Positions 25,985 through 63,312 of a DNA stretch of 64,000 nucleotides are shown here, in pieces (within the stretch, counting starts at the first letter, position 1; each line of letters opens with the position of its first letter). Where the stretch lies: assembly GCF_041021895.1 (NCBI RefSeq), contig NZ_CP157428.1, positions 1,798,001 through 1,862,000 on the forward strand, in the 5' to 3' direction. The stretch comes from Acinetobacter sp. XH1741. GTDB taxonomy: Bacteria > Pseudomonadota > Gammaproteobacteria > Pseudomonadales > Moraxellaceae. The notes below the pieces were generated by a model. The model was not told the DNA's origin and ran no database searches. It worked only from the letters and a program-made list of their open reading frames with translations. Position numbers and translations under genes: made by a program.

Positions 25985-26061
<77 letters not shown>

Positions 26062-26230
26062 AAATATTATGCTCTGTGATGTACTACTTTTCATGATAGG
26101 AATTCATGAAAAGCAATTAGCTTATAAATAACCCTATATCAAGCTAAATATTAAATTCTAGACGAATTGTCCATACCTTAAATCTAGCGTTCTAATTAAA
26201 TACCGTTAAATCACATGAGCTCAGTAATGA

Positions 26231-26470
26231 GTGAATACGATTGTGAATATAGTAAATGAGTGGCAAATTGCTACAGCCGTAAATGGCAATGAAATTAATG
26301 TGAGAGTCATTCCTCATATCCGTAAGCAAAACTCGCTTGATGGTTATCGTTGGGTTGAAGTTGGAAAGAAAATTCAGCTTCAAACTGGTGAAGAAATTGA
26401 GTTGAACCAAGATGGTAAGAGCTTTTATGCTGGCTTTAATCAACTTTATCGTTTAAATACATATTGTTGA
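26231..26470 (+). CDS. Hypothetical protein, 79 aa (GTG start)
   Basis: Not recognised; a beta-rich small protein with GYRWVEVGKKIQLQTGEEIEL in the middle and FYAGFNQLYRL near the end. The first possible start is GTG at 26231, with another GTG at 26243; neither has a good ribosome site. A strong terminator follows (26493-26527), which supports a real transcription unit. Confidence 0.5.
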   Translation: MNTIVNIVNEWQIATAVNGNEINVRVIPHIRKQNSLDGYRWVEVGKKIQLQTGEEIELNQDGKSFYAGFNQLYRLNTYC

Positions 26471-26492
26471 TAACACTATGGCACTAAAGCGA

Positions 26493-26527
26493 AAAAACCT
26501 ATCCCTTTTTAAAGAGATAGGTTTTTT
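26493..26527 (+). terminator. Terminator after the 79-aa gene
   Basis: AAAAACCTATC / GATAGGTTTTT with an 11-nt loop and seven T. Confidence 0.8.
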
Positions 26528-26621
26528 TATGTTTATAGGTTATATAAATAATTAAAATTATAAAAAAGTAAAACCTATGAAAATTTTGAAATTATTATTT
26601 TAGCTATATTTAATAACTCAA

Positions 26622-27293
26622 TTAACCTGCTCGCCAGAACTGACGCCCCATCACTTTAAAGTTTTTTCCGTTCTCTTCGGTTACACGGCGGTCTCTAAAT
26701 TTTTCATTTAAGCTATGCAAAATTAAAGAACCATCTGCTTCTTTAAAAATTTGCTTAATCATTCCTTCGCCAGCGAAATAAACAGCATAAATTTCTCCAT
26801 CAACGACTTCAGTCTGGGAAATATCAATCCCCACCAGATCTCCATCCTTAATGTAGTCCGTCATACTATCGCCTTTAGCTTTAATAATACGCATGCATTC
26901 TTGTGGAACCCGTTTTTCTTTAAAGAACGAAGCAGGAAAAGGGATTTTTCCATTAATTGCATCGAAATGAAATTCGATAGACTCACCTGTACCACAGGAA
27001 AAGCTCGCCTCAACCACCGCAATCCATACATATTGATCTGCTGCATCGCTACTCACAACAGTAGGGCTAAATACATCACTTTCCCTAAAAGAATCTTCTG
27101 TGTTTCCTGTGGTAAGCCAATATGCGTCTACACCTAAAAACTGTGCAATGAGGGGAAGAAAAGCAGATTTTAAGTTCTTTCCCGATTCTAAAGCTTGATA
27201 AGCAGGCTGAGACATTTTTACTGCTTCAGCAACTTCTGCCTGAGTTTTTTTAGCTTTAATTCTTGAATCTTTTAAACGGTCTTTAAGAGCCAT
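26622..27293 (-). CDS. S24-family phage-type repressor (LexA/cI-like, self-cleaving)
   Basis: 223 aa. N-terminal XRE helix-turn-helix (TQAEVAEAVKMSQPAYQALE), C-terminal S24 peptidase with catalytic S143 (GDSM) and K180, 37 residues apart as in LexA. A candidate cleavage site C100-G101 (FSCGTG) precedes it, a Cys-Gly bond like that of UmuD. RecA-stimulated self-cleavage would relieve repression during DNA damage. It is divergent from the holin-endolysin genes and faces three matching palindromic operators. No integrase or replication gene is nearby. Confidence 0.88.
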   Translation of the reverse strand: MALKDRLKDSRIKAKKTQAEVAEAVKMSQPAYQALESGKNLKSAFLPLIAQFLGVDAYWLTTGNTEDSFRESDVFSPTVVSSDAADQYVWIAVVEASFSCGTGESIEFHFDAINGKIPFPASFFKEKRVPQECMRIIKAKGDSMTDYIKDGDLVGIDISQTEVVDGEIYAVYFAGEGMIKQIFKEADGSLILHSLNEKFRDRRVTEENGKNFKVMGRQFWRAG

Positions 27294-27324
27294 AATGATC
27301 GCACCAGCTAACTTAAAACAAATA

Positions 27325-27386
27325 TATAACTAAAGTTATATCTAGTAAAACAACTATAGTTATTGACTAGTAATAACTATAGTTAT
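27325..27386. promoter_or_regulatory. Three palindromic operators of the S24 repressor
   Basis: Repeated AACTWWAGTT cores: TATAACTAAAGTTATA at 27325-27340, CAACTATAGTTATT at 27351-27364, and ATAACTATAGTTAT at 27373-27386. A half-like CAGTTATAA follows at 27392-27400. Spacing and number resemble OR-type repressor operators. Confidence 0.75.
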
Positions 27387-27391
27387 AATAT
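27363..27391 (+). promoter_or_regulatory. Rightward promoter overlapped by operators (PR-like)
   Basis: -35 TTGACT (27363-27368), exactly 17 bp, -10 TAATAT (27386-27391). The -35 abuts the second operator and the spacer contains the third, so bound repressor would block it. It points toward the short ORF, holin and endolysin; no plus-strand terminator is seen before the holin gene. Confidence 0.75.
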
Positions 27392-27572
27392 CAGTTATAA
27401 GAAATTATTGATAGAACAATGAAAATATTCTACACAAATATATTTTTAAATTTTATCAATAGCTTATATGGAAGTCTTAATTATTCTGCCTCAATGGACG
27501 ACAGAATATAAAAATGGTGATAGTCGAAGAGTGAACTAAATGGACTATTAAAAACAAAAATTGAATTAAAAA

Positions 27573-27597
27573 AAGCCCGATTCCGTGGATCAGGCTT
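27573..27597 (-). terminator. Minus-strand terminator inside the lysis-cassette leader
   Basis: AAGCCCGAT / ATCAGGCTT with seven A on the left, i.e. seven U on the minus-strand transcript. It implies a leftward transcript ending here, antisense to the rightward leader. It lacks a U run in the plus direction. Confidence 0.6.
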
Positions 27598-27598
27598 A

Positions 27599-27733
27599 AT
27601 GTTCGTCGATAAAGGGTATCAAGAACATGGAGAATCTAACAAAGAATTTAATTCGCCACAAAAGTTTCCGATATACGGCAAGGTGTTATCTCAAATTTTT
27701 GGTCAAAAACCTACAAGTAAGCCAATTCATTAG
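27599..27733 (+). CDS. Short unrecognised ORF, 44 aa, first in the rightward unit
   Basis: ATG at 27599; product begins MFVDKGYQEHGESNKEF and ends PTSKPIH. The composition is protein-like rather than AT-driven, and the same frame is open back to 27536 (LKKARFRGSG precedes), so it may be the tail of a longer gene that lost its start. A different frame is also open at 27627-27815 but looks less natural. Function unknown. Confidence 0.4.
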   Translation: MFVDKGYQEHGESNKEFNSPQKFPIYGKVLSQIFGQKPTSKPIH

Positions 27734-27797
27734 TTCTTCAGCTTTGACTTGTTTTTATGAGCGTACCAGAAGCTTTGAAACTAAAGGAGTGATGAGC

Positions 27798-27866
27798 CTA
27801 GAAACCTTGGTATAGCAGAGTGATAAATGAAAATATGAAAAATAACAAGGCGGTCAAGAGTTTCAT
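27798..27866 (-). CDS. Possible 22-aa hydrophobic peptide antisense to the holin leader
   Basis: Reads MKLLTALLFFIFSF and continues to a stop after YQGF: one charged residue then a single membrane-spanning stretch, like small type I toxins. It is upstream of the minus-strand terminator at 27573-27597, so a short leftward transcript is conceivable. No good ribosome site; in AT-rich DNA a hydrophobic ORF this short can arise by chance. Confidence 0.2.
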   Translation of the reverse strand: MKLLTALLFFIFSFITLLYQGF

Positions 27867-27900
27867 TTTTCAAGCTTTGTCTTTTAAACAGGATTAAATT

Positions 27901-28290
27901 ATGGAAAAAATTTTAGCAGAAAGTGCATTGGCCACTATGTTTCATCTCTATGGCACCGTCATGATGGTTGCTCTAGCAATTAGTCTTGTTGTCGCGGTTG
28001 TTTTAATCATGCGATTTCCACGTTCGCCTCAAGAATGGGTGGTAGGCTTAATCTGCACTATCGTTTCAAGTTTGACTGGTGGCTCATTCATTATCATGAA
28101 ATGGAATCTGCATGAATGGGTGACAGATATTTGGGGAATGATCACTTTAGGTGGCTTCTTCTTTATTTGTGGATTACCTGGTTGGGCAATTGTGAGATGG
28201 ATTTTTAATTTCATTAATAAACAGGAAGGAAAAACCATTATTGAAGTCATGAAAGACTTAAAAAAAGCAAAAGATGATATCCAAAGCTGA
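27901..28290 (+). CDS. Holin-like membrane protein
   Basis: 129 aa with about three hydrophobic helices (near residues 15-38, 47-65 and 77-98) and a charged Lys-rich C-terminal tail (EVMKDLKKAKDD), the layout of phage holins. It sits 36 bp before a muramidase-type endolysin, so it would form the inner-membrane lesion that lets the enzyme reach peptidoglycan. Identification rests on topology and neighbour. Rightward promoter with repressor operators lies 510 bp upstream. Confidence 0.7.
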   Translation: MEKILAESALATMFHLYGTVMMVALAISLVVAVVLIMRFPRSPQEWVVGLICTIVSSLTGGSFIIMKWNLHEWVTDIWGMITLGGFFFICGLPGWAIVRWIFNFINKQEGKTIIEVMKDLKKAKDDIQS

Positions 28291-28326
28291 TACTTCATAG
28301 GCTGAAATATAGATGAGGGCAATACA

Positions 28327-28872
28327 ATGAATATTGAACAGTATTTAGATGAACTTATAAAACGTGAAGGTGGGTATGTGAATGACCCAAATGATCCCGG
28401 GCATGCGACTAAGTTTGGTATTACACAAGCAGTTGCACGTGCATATGGATATCAAGACAACATGGAAAATTTATCTTTAGAGAGGGCTAGAGATATTTAT
28501 AAAAAGCAATATTGGTTTGAACCGCGATTTGACCAAGTTAATTTGATGAGTGCACCTATAGCTGAAGAGCTGTTCGATACAGCCGTTAATTGTGGTATTG
28601 GTTTTACAAAACCACTGTTACAACGCGCTTTAAATTTGTTGAATAGACAAGGCAAAGAAGGTTGGGTAGATCTTATACTCGATGGTGAATACGGGACAGC
28701 TACTTTAAATGCTTTATCAATATATATTCAAAAACGCGGTACTGAAGGGGAAAAGGTATTGGTTCGACTTCTTAATATTATGCAAGGTCAGCACTATATT
28801 GAGATCACCGAGAAAAACCCAAAGTACGAGCAATTCTTCTATGGCTGGCTGGCGAACCGTATAAGCTTGTGA
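28327..28872 (+). CDS. GH108-family endolysin (N-acetylmuramidase)
   Basis: 181 aa. N-terminal GH108 signature with catalytic Glu14 in KREGGYVNDPNDPG and the following TKFGIT; a C-terminal peptidoglycan-binding-like half with FDTAVNCG and DGEYGTATL. No signal peptide, so export needs the holin next door. Strong terminator directly after the stop closes the unit. Such enzymes are phage lysis proteins, but no phage morphogenesis operon is present nearby. Confidence 0.87.
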   Translation: MNIEQYLDELIKREGGYVNDPNDPGHATKFGITQAVARAYGYQDNMENLSLERARDIYKKQYWFEPRFDQVNLMSAPIAEELFDTAVNCGIGFTKPLLQRALNLLNRQGKEGWVDLILDGEYGTATLNALSIYIQKRGTEGEKVLVRLLNIMQGQHYIEITEKNPKYEQFFYGWLANRISL

Positions 28873-28938
28873 AAAAGCCAACTTGCTAAAATTGTTTTAA
28901 GCATAAATGCGATGAAACGTTTAACAAGTTGGCTTTTT
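28872..28938 (+). terminator. Long-armed terminator after the endolysin
   Basis: Perfect 14-bp arms AAAAAGCCAACTTG / CAAGTTGGCTTTTT, 39-nt loop. The flanking A and T tracts make it bidirectional, also ending the convergent LysE-type gene. Confidence 0.8.
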
Positions 28939-28965
28939 CTTTTTAATGGAGAAACACGTAGGGGC

Positions 28966-29583
28966 TTATTGAGTAATCAGCAAAATAGCCAGAAGAAAGA
29001 AAATACAACCACTCACTTTATTGAGTTTTGAAAAATTATTCCCTGCAAGCATTTTCTCTTTAAAAATCGAAGAAAAGTTGGCATAAACTAAATGAATAAA
29101 AAAACCAATTAGGCAAAAAGTTAAAGATAAAACAAGAAACTGATTTAATATTTCTTTTTTAATATCAATAAACTGTGGGAAAAGCGCAATAAAAAACACG
29201 ATTGTTTTTGGATTAAGCAATGAAGCAAATAAACCTTGATAGAAAAGTTTTGATTTTTTTACCCCTTTCTTGTCATGCTCAGTTTCTAATAAATCTTGAG
29301 TCGGAGATTTTTTAATAAAATTTTTATAGCCTAAATACATGAGGTAAAAGGCCCCGATAAATTTTAAGACAGTAAAGATGGTTGGATTACTCGTAATAAT
29401 AAGTCCCACGCCACTCGCAGAAATCACTGCAATAATGAACATACCAATAATTAAACCACTAATACCAAATAGAGCTGTACGTACCCCGTAATTGATTGAG
29501 TTCGTGACTGTAAATAAAACGCCTGGTCCAGGGCTTGATAAAGTAAGAAAAGCAATGGTTATAAAAACTAAAAGACCGTTCAC
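28966..29583 (-). CDS. LysE/RhtB-family exporter
   Basis: 205 aa, six predicted helices, with LTLSSPGPGVLFTVTNS at the N-terminus and SLLNPKTIVFF in the middle, as in LysE/RhtB exporters. A second member of this family in the window (the other at 23.1-23.7 kb); they are not close copies. Substrate unknown. It stands alone, facing the lysis cassette terminator. Confidence 0.82.
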   Translation of the reverse strand: MNGLLVFITIAFLTLSSPGPGVLFTVTNSINYGVRTALFGISGLIIGMFIIAVISASGVGLIITSNPTIFTVLKFIGAFYLMYLGYKNFIKKSPTQDLLETEHDKKGVKKSKLFYQGLFASLLNPKTIVFFIALFPQFIDIKKEILNQFLVLSLTFCLIGFFIHLVYANFSSIFKEKMLAGNNFSKLNKVSGCIFFLLAILLITQ

Positions 29584-32579: not shown

Positions 32580-33038
32580 ATGCCAAAGTATTTAGCTATA
32601 GCAGATAAAGTATATAAAGAAATTAAAAAAGATAAATTGTTCACGGAAGATACTATTCAAAATCTAAATTGTTTAATAAGTTTGATTCGTAAAGCCATTA
32701 AAGGTACCGAATTTAAACTTAAATACAATTTTATAAATTTTGAAGAATGTTTAAATCAATTTAATAAAGAAAAATCAGTACACGTCGATTTAAGCCTGAT
32801 GCCAAAGCATCAAAATGAAGGGGAGTTTATTTTATGGCTTGCTGGCTTTATTGAACGCATGACTATAGGAGGTAAAGAAAAGCTTCCTCCTATTTCGAAC
32901 TATATTCCAAAAGGCTTCAGCCTTGATAAGGTTGAAGCTCCTGTAGCTGTTGAGCAAATCAAAGAAGAAAATGCCGAGATGATCATTAACTACTTTAAAT
33001 CTGAGGACTATATCAAAAATAATAAAGTATCCTCTTAA
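32580..33038 (+). CDS. Unknown protein, tandem paralogue A (152 aa)
   Basis: Strong GAGGAGG ribosome site. Shares with the gene at 33388 a common core: YLAIADKVY, LKYNFINFEECL, VDLSLMP and EFILWLAGFIERM. It differs by a C-terminal extension of about 45 residues rich in Pro, Lys and Glu. No signal peptide or membrane helix; no family recognised. A GC-rich terminator follows. Confidence 0.65.
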   Translation: MPKYLAIADKVYKEIKKDKLFTEDTIQNLNCLISLIRKAIKGTEFKLKYNFINFEECLNQFNKEKSVHVDLSLMPKHQNEGEFILWLAGFIERMTIGGKEKLPPISNYIPKGFSLDKVEAPVAVEQIKEENAEMIINYFKSEDYIKNNKVSS

Positions 33039-33095
33039 TAAATATAGAAGTGCTTTTCCACCGTACTTCTATATCTGGCTGATAAAAATTCAGCT

Positions 33096-33118
33096 ACCGC
33101 CTTCTGGGGCGGTTTTTT
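33096..33118 (+). terminator. Terminator after paralogue A
   Basis: ACCGCC / GGCGGT then six T. Confidence 0.8.
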
Positions 33119-33387
33119 ATTATAAGTAATACTCAATTGAACATGAGAGTAGTTCTTATAAAATAGTCTTCCATTTTAAAAATTTTATTTATTGCTTAAT
33201 GGGCCTAATTTAAAATGTCAGAAAATATGGAATTGTTTTTTAAATAAATAATAATTATATAAAAAATAGATATTTGGGGGATATGGCGTTATTTCTGTTG
33301 AAGTATTTTTCACATAAAAATAATCTTAAATTACGTATAGAAACGTTTACTAGTACATACTTTCTAAAAAAATAGGAAGATAACGAG

Positions 33388-33732
33388 ATGAATGAGAATG
33401 CTGAACTCATTAAATATTTAGATATTGCCGAAAACGTCTATGCAAATATTTATGAAAAGTATCAGATCACCAATAATCCTGTGACGAACTTGAATAGGGT
33501 TATGGCGGAAATTAAAAAAGAAGCTGATCAAAACGATTTAAAGTTAAAGTACACTAAAATTGATTTTGAAGAATGTTTAAGTAAACCTCTTTCAGAAAGA
33601 GAGATAAAAGTCGATTTAAGTTTGCTTCCTCGTTTTGAGTATAGAGATGAATTTATTTTATGGTTGGCTAATTTTATTGGGAATATTAGTGTGCAGAAAA
33701 AATTTATAAAACAAAATTTTCACTTTAATTAA
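33388..33732 (+). CDS. Unknown protein, tandem paralogue B (114 aa)
   Basis: Same core as the 152-aa protein at 32580: YLDIAENVY, LKYTKIDFEECL, VDLSLLP, EFILWLANFIGNI, but ending soon after it. The pair arose by duplication and diverged to roughly half identity by eye, with different C-termini. Each has its own upstream gap of about 350 bp or more. Function unknown. Confidence 0.62.
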   Translation: MNENAELIKYLDIAENVYANIYEKYQITNNPVTNLNRVMAEIKKEADQNDLKLKYTKIDFEECLSKPLSEREIKVDLSLLPRFEYRDEFILWLANFIGNISVQKKFIKQNFHFN

Positions 33733-33821
33733 CTTGTTATGTGACAAGAGTTTTAATCACTATCTTAGAACTTAGCGATATAAAAAGAACAATAAAGTAC
33801 GCCTGAGTAGAGGTAACTTCT

Positions 33822-34928
33822 ATGAAGAATATTACTGAAAAATCACTTTTCGATGTGTTTACACAACATCAAGCCTATCTTTATAGGGCATCTTCAAGAA
33901 CAGTAAATGACATTCTTAAGCTCTTTTATAGTAAAACATTCGATATGCTTGATAAGTTAGAACCTTTACTAAAAGTCTTAGATGAAACGGAAAGATTTAC
34001 TTTAGCAGGCGGCGAGTACACCACTCATAGTTTAAAAAAAATCCAACGTGTTATTTCGGATTGGTTTATTTCAATTAGCACTGCTGTATCACAAATTTTT
34101 ACTGACTCAGCTACTTCTCTAGCGATATATGAATCTAAGTATATGGCTAAACTATTTGGCAAAGTTATTAAAGAAGTGAGAGGAGAAGCCTTATATACGT
34201 TAATAAAACGAGTTCCCTTAGCAGGTGGGGCTTTGATGGATGAGTCCTTAGCTCAAATGAGTGAAAACACCCTACAAAGAGTTGAATATGCTATTCGTGA
34301 TGGAATGAATACAGGGATGACTCCCCAGCAGATTATTAAACGTATTAGTGGTACTAAACGCCTTAAATATGAAGATGGGTTACTCAACACTAGCAAAGTC
34401 GACATTGAGCGGATTGTGAGAACCTTACGCAGCCATATATCAAATCAAGTCTATTTATATAACTTTAAAAACTTTAATTTTGAATACGTAAGATTTGTGA
34501 GTGTGTTGGACGGAAGAACTTCTAAAACCTGCGCAGCAATTGATGGCTCTATTTGGGAATTAAATGATCCAACGAAAAAAGTACCTCCTTTACATCCTAA
34601 CTGCCGAAGTATTTTGGTACCGGTAAGTAGGGATGGCCGACTTATCGGTAACCGATCTTTTCTTATGGATGAAAGGAAAGTACGAGACATTCCTAAACAT
34701 GAACGAACTCAGTTAATGGGGTATATAGATGCCAATATTTCCTTTAAAGAATTTTTTAAACTGACAGATAGTTTTTTCCAAAAAGAATGGCTAGGTCCTA
34801 AACGTTATAAATTATATAAAGAAGGCCAATTTGATTTTGATAAATTTTTTGACCCTAAAGGGCGACTCTATACTCTGGATGAGTTGAGTGAACTTGATGA
34901 AAGAACCTTTAAAATACTTGGGTTGTAG
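33822..34928 (+). CDS. Mu gpF / SPP1 gp7-like phage head morphogenesis protein, orphan
   Basis: 368 aa. The diagnostic region is VSVLDGRTSKTCAAIDGS followed by VPPLHPNCRSILVPV, the Cys/His motif of phage minor head proteins that join the portal and help early capsid assembly. N-terminal half helical. No portal, terminase or capsid gene lies next to it, so it is a prophage remnant or a reused domain. An AntA-type gene 3 kb on is also phage-derived. Confidence 0.82.
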   Translation: MKNITEKSLFDVFTQHQAYLYRASSRTVNDILKLFYSKTFDMLDKLEPLLKVLDETERFTLAGGEYTTHSLKKIQRVISDWFISISTAVSQIFTDSATSLAIYESKYMAKLFGKVIKEVRGEALYTLIKRVPLAGGALMDESLAQMSENTLQRVEYAIRDGMNTGMTPQQIIKRISGTKRLKYEDGLLNTSKVDIERIVRTLRSHISNQVYLYNFKNFNFEYVRFVSVLDGRTSKTCAAIDGSIWELNDPTKKVPPLHPNCRSILVPVSRDGRLIGNRSFLMDERKVRDIPKHERTQLMGYIDANISFKEFFKLTDSFFQKEWLGPKRYKLYKEGQFDFDKFFDPKGRLYTLDELSELDERTFKILGL

Positions 34929-63063: not shown

Positions 63064-63107
63064 CCAACGCAGTAGAGTTACAACGAAATCACTGCTAAAA
63101 TCCACCC

Positions 63108-63245
63108 CATTGTCATTGGGGAGTAGCCATTCCTAGTACCCAGCTAGGAAGAGCACGTCAACAAACTTGAGATGAGTATCTCATGGCGTGTTCAGCCGCT
63201 GTATATATACAGTGTGAGCTAGGCGAGACCTTTGGCCACAACGTA
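63108..63245 (+). promoter_or_regulatory. yybP-ykoY manganese riboswitch
   Basis: Contains the two conserved Mn2+-sensing loops: TTGGGGAGTAGCC (63116-63128) and GGCGAGACCTTTGGCC (63222-63236), linked by variable stems (CCTAG/CTAGG, GAGATGAGTATCTC). Stands just before a CaCA-type transporter gene, as in many Mn-export operons. Identified by eye, not by covariance search. Confidence 0.82.
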
Positions 63246-63255
63246 CTTTGCTAGT

Positions 63256-63298
63256 CGGGCGAGGAGCGTTGTTGCGCCAATGGTTTCTTGTTCGCCCG
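63256..63298 (+). terminator. Expression-platform hairpin of the riboswitch
   Basis: CGGGCGA / TCGCCCG arms enclosing 29 nt, 14 nt before the start codon. It could hide the ribosome site, so control is probably at translation initiation. No T run follows. Confidence 0.55.
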
Positions 63299-63312
63299 GC
63301 TGGAATGATTCT

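Follow-up and report, generated by a model that had tools for sequence, protein, structure and literature searches.

The 64,000-nucleotide stretch of the Acinetobacter sp. XH1741 genome analyzed here (the window; 1.80 to 1.86 Mb of a genome that totals 4.0 Mb in four contigs) contains, between a tRNA-Met gene and a lysE-type gene, a compact cassette composed of a phage-type repressor, three operators, an outward promoter, a leader, a holin-like gene, an endolysin gene and a terminator. This cassette is, on balance, probably an SOS-type lysis switch that derives from a prophage and is inherited vertically; we infer from its genes and sites that DNA damage would induce it and that lysis would be the outcome. 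As judged by the comparisons with related genomes, it is a vertically inherited, prophage-derived unit and not a decaying remnant. The order from left to right is xseA (minus strand), tRNA-Met (plus), a 79-aa open reading frame (ORF; plus), the repressor (minus), operators, promoter, leader, holin-like gene (plus), endolysin gene (plus), terminator, lysE (minus), a cold-shock-type gene (csp) and proC, the last two names being taken from the annotation of the related record L002. The features are as follows.

26622-27293, minus strand: S24/CI-type repressor of 223 aa (Pfam S24, PF00717, E 3.5e-20, plus HTH_3).
27326-27339, no strand: operator 1 (ATAACTAAAGTTAT), a palindrome conserved in the aligned loci.
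27350-27363, no strand: operator 2 (ACAACTATAGTTAT), a palindrome conserved in the aligned loci, touching the -35 element.
27373-27386, no strand: operator 3 (ATAACTATAGTTAT), a palindrome conserved in the aligned loci, occupying most of the promoter spacer.
27363-27391, plus strand: outward promoter TTGACT-17-TAATAT, by consensus match and conservation in the aligned loci.
27566-27640, plus strand: conserved leader element, with a hairpin (27573-27597) and a second hairpin that includes a Shine-Dalgarno-like AAGGG and the AU of the short-ORF start codon.
27627-27815, plus strand: short ORF of 62 aa, conserved over its first 27 or so residues but not in its tail, without Pfam or PHROG match.
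27901-28290, plus strand: holin-like membrane protein (PHROG 1024) with three hydrophobic helices.
28327-28872, plus strand: GH108 endolysin with PG_binding_3 (Pfam, PHROG 315), without a hydrophobic stretch.
28871-28939, plus strand: intrinsic terminator (arms 28871-28890 and 28920-28939; fold -30.2 kcal/mol, z -6.2).
25985-26061, plus strand: tRNA-Met (CAT) of the left flank, by ARAGORN.

The original prediction, made from the DNA alone, had described a lysis cassette without phage structural genes, and its repressor, operators, promoter, short ORF, holin-like gene, endolysin gene and terminator were all recovered. No integrase, replication or virion gene was found with Pfam and PHROG among the ORFs scanned from the tRNA to lysE (25985-29583), and the unit does not contain the integrase and virion genes by which a prophage is recognized; the nearest head gene (33822-34928) lies past lysE, csp and proC.

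In the proposed mechanism, the repressor would shut the outward promoter via the three operators, and activated RecA would cause its self-cleavage at C100-G101. The freed transcription would run through the leader into the holin and endolysin genes; the holin would open the inner membrane and the GH108 enzyme would cut the wall, and a single cell would lyse without virions, releasing its DNA and contents. Acinetobacter was described, in the part of the source available, as having no LexA, and its prophage genes as being induced by mitomycin in a RecA-dependent manner (PMC3978071). The likely benefit of the proposed lysis would fall to kin in the population in the form of released DNA, vesicles and matrix, as has been proposed for Pseudomonas Alp and Lys lysis.

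S24 repressors undergo self-cleavage with activated RecA. Pfam and a residue check bore out the domains and residues that had been predicted, namely the C100-G101 cleavage site and the S143/K180 dyad, all at the positions given for them. The protein also matches PHROG 4 (E 2.3e-43) and combines a helix-turn-helix with an S24 domain beside its own conserved operator footprint, as phage S24/CI repressors do; by sequence alone, PF00717, C100-G101, S143 and K180 likewise give it the autocleavable S24/LexA-like repressor of an Alp-type system. It is 94.6 to 98.2% identical to the repressors of the 11 other loci examined (in all 12: the window, L002, L079 and nine named loci; the alignments and the substitution analysis do not include L040, where the contig stops past the repressor).

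The three matching palindromic operators that had been predicted are present beyond chance: AACTNNAGTT occurs three times within 333 bp, a number reached in none of 5,000 Markov samples. Loose palindromes are only mildly enriched (4 versus a mean of 1.01, with 74 of 5,000 samples having as many). In the entire 4.0 Mb genome, the operator 14-mer with at most one mismatch has five sites, three of them at the cassette, and the reversed control pattern has 3. The predicted promoter, pointing away from the repressor and with an operator in its spacer, is also there; its consensus match alone is no evidence, since 7 such sites were found against 14.3 expected, and its support comes from conservation. 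TTGACT is kept in 11 of 11 aligned loci and TAATAT in 10 of 11, the three operators occupy the same places in all 11 with at most two mismatches each to the consensus 14-mer, and about 150 bases beyond this footprint diverge. Promoter and operators are thus supported by a conserved footprint and by the same repressor-cro arrangement in prophages: in other Acinetobacter prophages, relatives of the repressor stand next to a small divergent regulator gene, and the place equivalent to the promoter precedes cro. Relatives sharing the repressor's type of recognition helix (L042, L043, L044 and L023; repressors of 74 to 78% identity) have matching sites with 0 to 3 mismatches to the consensus at the same 23 to 24 bp spacing, three each in L042, L043 and L023 and two in L044; those with another helix (phages ABMM1 and A785.1; L045-L047) have other palindromes. 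Two exact sites also occur in L059, whose protein resembles the repressor only over residues 3-65 (81%), and in L057 (41% overall). The operators thus go with the DNA-binding domain of the repressor.

The leader is nearly invariant at 27569-27640 across 11 loci, and since the sequence hardly varies, no covariation emerged (a compensatory change in 0 of 30 predicted pairs), the structure being predicted and not proven. On the opposite strand a T run closes the first hairpin, so that this element could stop transcription arriving from that direction; that the leader damps leaky transcription is a guess. The hairpin and the ORF start resemble the stretch after cro-like or cII-like genes in L082, L083, L085 and the strain's own prophage at 3,128,676. 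The Group 1 small RNAs of A. baumannii, as presented in the available part of their description, were the comparison that prompted the idea of a C4-like antisense RNA (PMC5320573). This candidate was rejected, as no Rfam family reached threshold (best weak match, E 0.27); the leader instead resembles a piece of a phage early operon. The short ORF foreseen by the original prediction exists at its place, but only its first 27 or so residues are conserved: its total length ranges from 45 to 62 aa, its start is ATT in one of 12 loci, and another has a frameshift. Species differ in how long the gap between leader and holin gene is and in what it contains. It is longer in all six group B loci (pittii, calcoaceticus, lactucae and WC-141) and holds there a conserved 84-aa frame (e.g., L036:9074-9328, minus strand), with weak PHROG matches only (E 0.0055 at best). 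This frame, which none of the three group A loci checked has, could be a fourth gene of the cassette.

A holin-like gene followed by a GH108 endolysin gene had been predicted, and both genes are present. PHROG 1024 is annotated as 'unknown function', and we therefore infer from topology and context that the product of 27901-28290 is a holin. A further argument for the holin role is that the same holin family stands beside two endolysin families, PHROG 315 in the cassette and PHROG 181 in a second Acinetobacter unit treated below. Among solved structures, the nearest relatives of the endolysin are Sen1395 (6v3z) and 6v40, which we take to be relatives of the typhoid-toxin release muramidase TtsA, and its sole NCBIfam match, below cutoff, is 'holin-associated N-acetylmuramidase'. 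The terminator was found as predicted, but its arms are 20 nt long (95% complementary) and not 14.

A survey of 175 genomes of the genus ties the cassette to a group of related species, which carry it at a single chromosomal place. xseA was present at an identity of at least 89% in 17 genomes (next best, 76%), and the repressor at an identity of at least 95% in the same 17 and in none of the other 158 (next best, 78%). We take these 17 to be the A. calcoaceticus-baumannii complex; by record titles they include A. nosocomialis, A. seifertii, A. pittii, A. calcoaceticus and A. lactucae. The holin gene adjoins the repressor in 16 of the 17, while the 17th (G045) stops at a contig edge, and the other 15 of the 16 have a leader match of about 145 nt at 87 to 96% identity. 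The named loci L033-L041 and L048 come largely from these same genomes and are therefore not independent evidence. In all three chromosome-sized A. baumannii records in PLSDB with a complex-type xseA (80 to 90% DNA identity), the unit is present, aligning over 96% of the query with about 85% identity. The A. baumannii protein clusters, counted irrespective of genomic site, point the same way, with 297 members for the cassette-type holin (88%) and 344 and 328 for the endolysin (83%). If the proposed function is true, a major hospital-pathogen complex carries a suicide switch under the signal produced by DNA-damaging antibiotics, and, whatever prophages a strain has, antibiotic stress would be tied to the shedding of DNA, vesicles and matrix in a genus that is transformable.

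Retention under selection had also been claimed, and it stands, given that all 17 complex genomes have the repressor, that repressor, holin and endolysin genes are open and full length in each of the 12 loci examined, and that the ratios of nonsynonymous to synonymous substitutions (dN/dS) are low. These ratios are Nei-Gojobori means over non-independent pairs, taken without a likelihood test, for 15 pairs within group A, 15 within group B and 36 between the groups, and are given here in that order: repressor, 0.022, 0.009 and 0.021; holin, 0.060, 0.050 and 0.073; endolysin, 0.090, 0.083 and 0.107 (dS undefined in 14 of the 36 pairs between groups). The flanking genes gave 0.052, 0.031 and 0.047 for xseA; 0.029, 0.058 and 0.048 for lysE; 0.051, 0.062 and 0.078 for proC (7 of the 36 undefined); 0.052, 0.127 and 0.203 for the cold-shock gene; and 0.061, 0.085 and 0.067 for the 79-aa ORF, whose rows were extended upstream to the first codon of the query, the resulting pre-start stops in nine rows being masked. 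All three cassette genes are under purifying selection, and the repressor, the most constrained of them, changes less than the adjacent core gene. In the trees, the cassette holins form one clade (12 of 12; support 100/99), and the cassette endolysins together with seven of 33 database proteins are split from the other 26 by a 100/99 branch; the trees took in 33 of 120 listed endolysin relatives and 22 of 120 listed holin relatives, top matches resembling the cassette's own being left out. This pattern fits one old acquisition followed by descent with the species.

The most likely and simplest history is that a prophage by the tRNA-Met lost its middle, from cro through the head and tail genes, in a presumed deletion that fused the early promoter to the late lysis genes. 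It is the simplest because leader, holin and endolysin resemble prophage parts: the holin and endolysin genes have about 70 to 73% DNA identity to lysis modules of Acinetobacter phages. Relatives of the repressor were examined at 80 loci on viral contigs, with up to 5 kb of flank each; the cassette holin and endolysin were there in L116 only, which is itself a 97% copy of the cassette locus with the same host neighbors lysE, csp and proC. No deletion intermediate was found and no convincing attachment repeats flank the cassette. An empty site was sought in six xseA stretches from cassette-free relatives, of which two (L203 and L204) have the tRNA-Met near xseA and none has the right-hand genes; the tRNA is not there in L201, L202 and L206, and L205 starts too near xseA to judge. 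No insertion boundary is drawn, because L202 and L205 each lack enough sequence on one side to inform throughout. The lysE-type gene (28966-29583) was seen in complex genomes only (6 of 59 sampled genomes at E 1e-50), so the right flank, like the cassette, may be specific to the lineage.

Several observations weigh against a damage-induced lysis switch. In the part available of the A. baumannii 17978 mitomycin study, the lysozymes and the holin in Table 3, which according to the text covers 152 genes, all belong to prophages, and the table also has five non-prophage hypotheticals that are unmapped to the cassette (PMC3978071). A second study, as far as its available part goes, counts 175 induced genes, with 3 of 50 new ones outside prophages, and names no non-prophage holin, lysozyme or endolysin (PMC10808703). 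If 17978 has the cassette, as its examined relatives do, these partial lists without non-prophage lysis genes weigh against strong bulk induction, which would then be weak or absent in that strain. Firing in rare cells, as described for Alp in the part of that source available, would escape bulk data (PMC7969949). Furthermore, a phage early promoter followed by a hairpin does not assure read-through into the lysis genes, and a fold search with the holin model (pLDDT, predicted local distance difference test, 74) gave no significant match, the second-ranked weak match being called holin (E 0.37).

Other functions can be proposed for the same genes. One, which we regard as unlikely, is phage defence: the repressor would give superinfection immunity, and the lysis genes would form an abortive-infection trap freed by an incoming Cro or antirepressor. 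The prophages with matching operators in other Acinetobacter (L042, L043, L044 and L023) would supply the targets of such a system, five viral contigs, including the cassette-bearing L116/L196 contig, have the two-operator pattern in exact form, and of the three genes the repressor is the most constrained. None of the 17 complex genomes has a second match (E 1e-40) covering the DNA-binding domain, but this absence is not significant, because a full-length repressor of 74 to 78% identity occurs in only 4 of the other 158 genomes; nor is there any PADLOC family match beyond weak helix-turn-helix ones.

A slightly smaller chance is given to type 10-like secretion, in which holin and muramidase would release a protein cargo without killing the cell. 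The cassette does combine a holin-like protein, putatively a holin, with a peptidoglycan hydrolase, and both the structural relatives of the endolysin, with their presumed kinship to TtsA, and the NCBIfam name lean this way. Yet no further gene lies inside the unit that could be a linked exported cargo (an unlinked one is possible), a phage repressor is in control, and Acinetobacter phages commonly have GH108 proteins as endolysins. Least of all is it probable that the cassette is a prophage remnant in which only the repressor and its autoregulation are kept while the lysis genes drift: constraint is lowest on the endolysin (dN/dS 0.08 to 0.11) and the stretch from leader to holin differs between species, but drifting genes should have gathered stops, and none of the 12 loci has an interrupted holin or endolysin gene at a mean dS of 0.6 to 2, with dN/dS near that of host genes.

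For the lysis switch, the closest known system is AlpR-AlpA-AlpBCDE of P. aeruginosa, which, in the part of its description available, is likewise chromosomal and phage-like, with a damage-cleaved repressor, putative holins and lysis in a subset of cells (PMC7969949). Unlike in Alp, the promoter beside the cassette repressor points directly at a holin-like gene and a GH108 endolysin gene. No AlpA-type relay was recognized: the only plus-strand ORF of at least 50 aa between repressor and lysis genes is the 62-aa ORF, without Pfam or PHROG match, and the group B 84-aa ORF has weak PHROG matches only, neither having been compared directly with AlpA. On paper the cassette works like Alp, and the proposed mechanism is plausible; because no antiterminator relay turned up and induction by damage is a prediction, membership of the Alp system is not claimed. 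In explosive cell lysis of P. aeruginosa, as far as the available part of the source goes, the endolysin Lys with the holins Hol, AlpB and CidA also releases DNA from a subset of cells (PMC8131026). The cassette differs from the Lys system in having no tail genes. P. aeruginosa Lys belongs to a pyocin cluster. Acinetobacter temperate phages provide counterparts of the repressor, operators, leader hairpin, holin and endolysin, with a control region as in L042 and a lysis module as in H3-H30, whereas the cassette lacks everything between early promoter and lysis module. The type 10 secretion muramidases, such as the presumably related TtsA, share the GH108-type enzyme and the holin-like neighbor but differ in that the cassette has no cargo gene in the unit and is under phage-type repressor control.

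Another example of a repressor near a holin of this family, at a different chromosomal locus, was seen in 11 named loci (L060-L069 and L071) of A. proteolyticus, A. gyllenbergii, A. colistiniresistens, A. dispersus, A. higginsii, A. vivianii and others, where an S24 repressor of about 30% identity has a same-family holin (40 to 43%) 2.4 to 5 kb away. L060 (6615-10675), the only locus to be scanned completely, has two small genes (one of them PHROG 5656) and an unmatched 253-aa protein between repressor and holin, and behind the holin an endolysin (PHROG 181, E 3e-36; Pfam GH19 below cutoff, E 0.0025); the gene beside this unit is taken for yceI. L069 has two larger unmatched proteins between repressor and holin. 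The second-unit repressor occurs at an identity of at least 89% in 14 of the 175 genomes, other than the cassette carriers, and the unit is whole in all 14, with the holin 2.3 to 4.9 kb from the repressor and an endolysin gene next to it without stops. That this unit is fixed in its clade was not upheld, as nine further non-complex genomes with a YceI of at least 94% do not have the repressor at that identity; in one of these YceI carriers, G166, a related holin and endolysin exist only as fragments, on other contigs. It is possible but rather doubtful that prophages were reduced at least twice independently in Acinetobacter, to a GH108 type in the A. calcoaceticus-baumannii complex and a GH19-like type in the second group, each a switch plus lysis module at a fixed site whose damage-triggered altruistic lysis would feed DNA to naturally transformable kin. 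If it works as proposed, the cassette is well suited to studying the point at which a prophage remnant turns into a host organ, and the second unit offers a parallel within the genus for comparison.

The original prediction had further argued for retention from decayed phage genes beside the cassette. This argument fails, because the phage genes in question lie past host genes and are open and conserved in five loci. They comprise two PHROG 1023 genes and a Mu-F/SPP1 gp7-like head protein (32580-34928), stop-free in all five loci having them (the window, L002, L079, L033 and L034) at mean dN/dS of 0.054 to 0.081, and were not found in the fetched stretches of A. seifertii, A. pittii, A. calcoaceticus, WC-141 and A. 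lactucae. They are a second set of phage genes kept without a phage.

Among the matches listed in openly licensed literature, no paper on a stand-alone Acinetobacter lysis cassette appeared by title or abstract. Neither a paper search for 17978 locus tags of the cassette nor lysis terms in PMC6561030 gave a match. The record L002 (CAKLQF020000006.1, 'Acinetobacter phage MD-2021a') is 207 kb long and has benzoate and phenol genes, and the PLSDB matches H62-H64 are three 'plasmids' of 3.7 to 4.1 Mb; these look like bacterial chromosome sequence under a wrong label. Elsewhere in the window, positions 63106-63301 are a manganese riboswitch (yybP-ykoY; Rfam RF00080, 67.4 bits).

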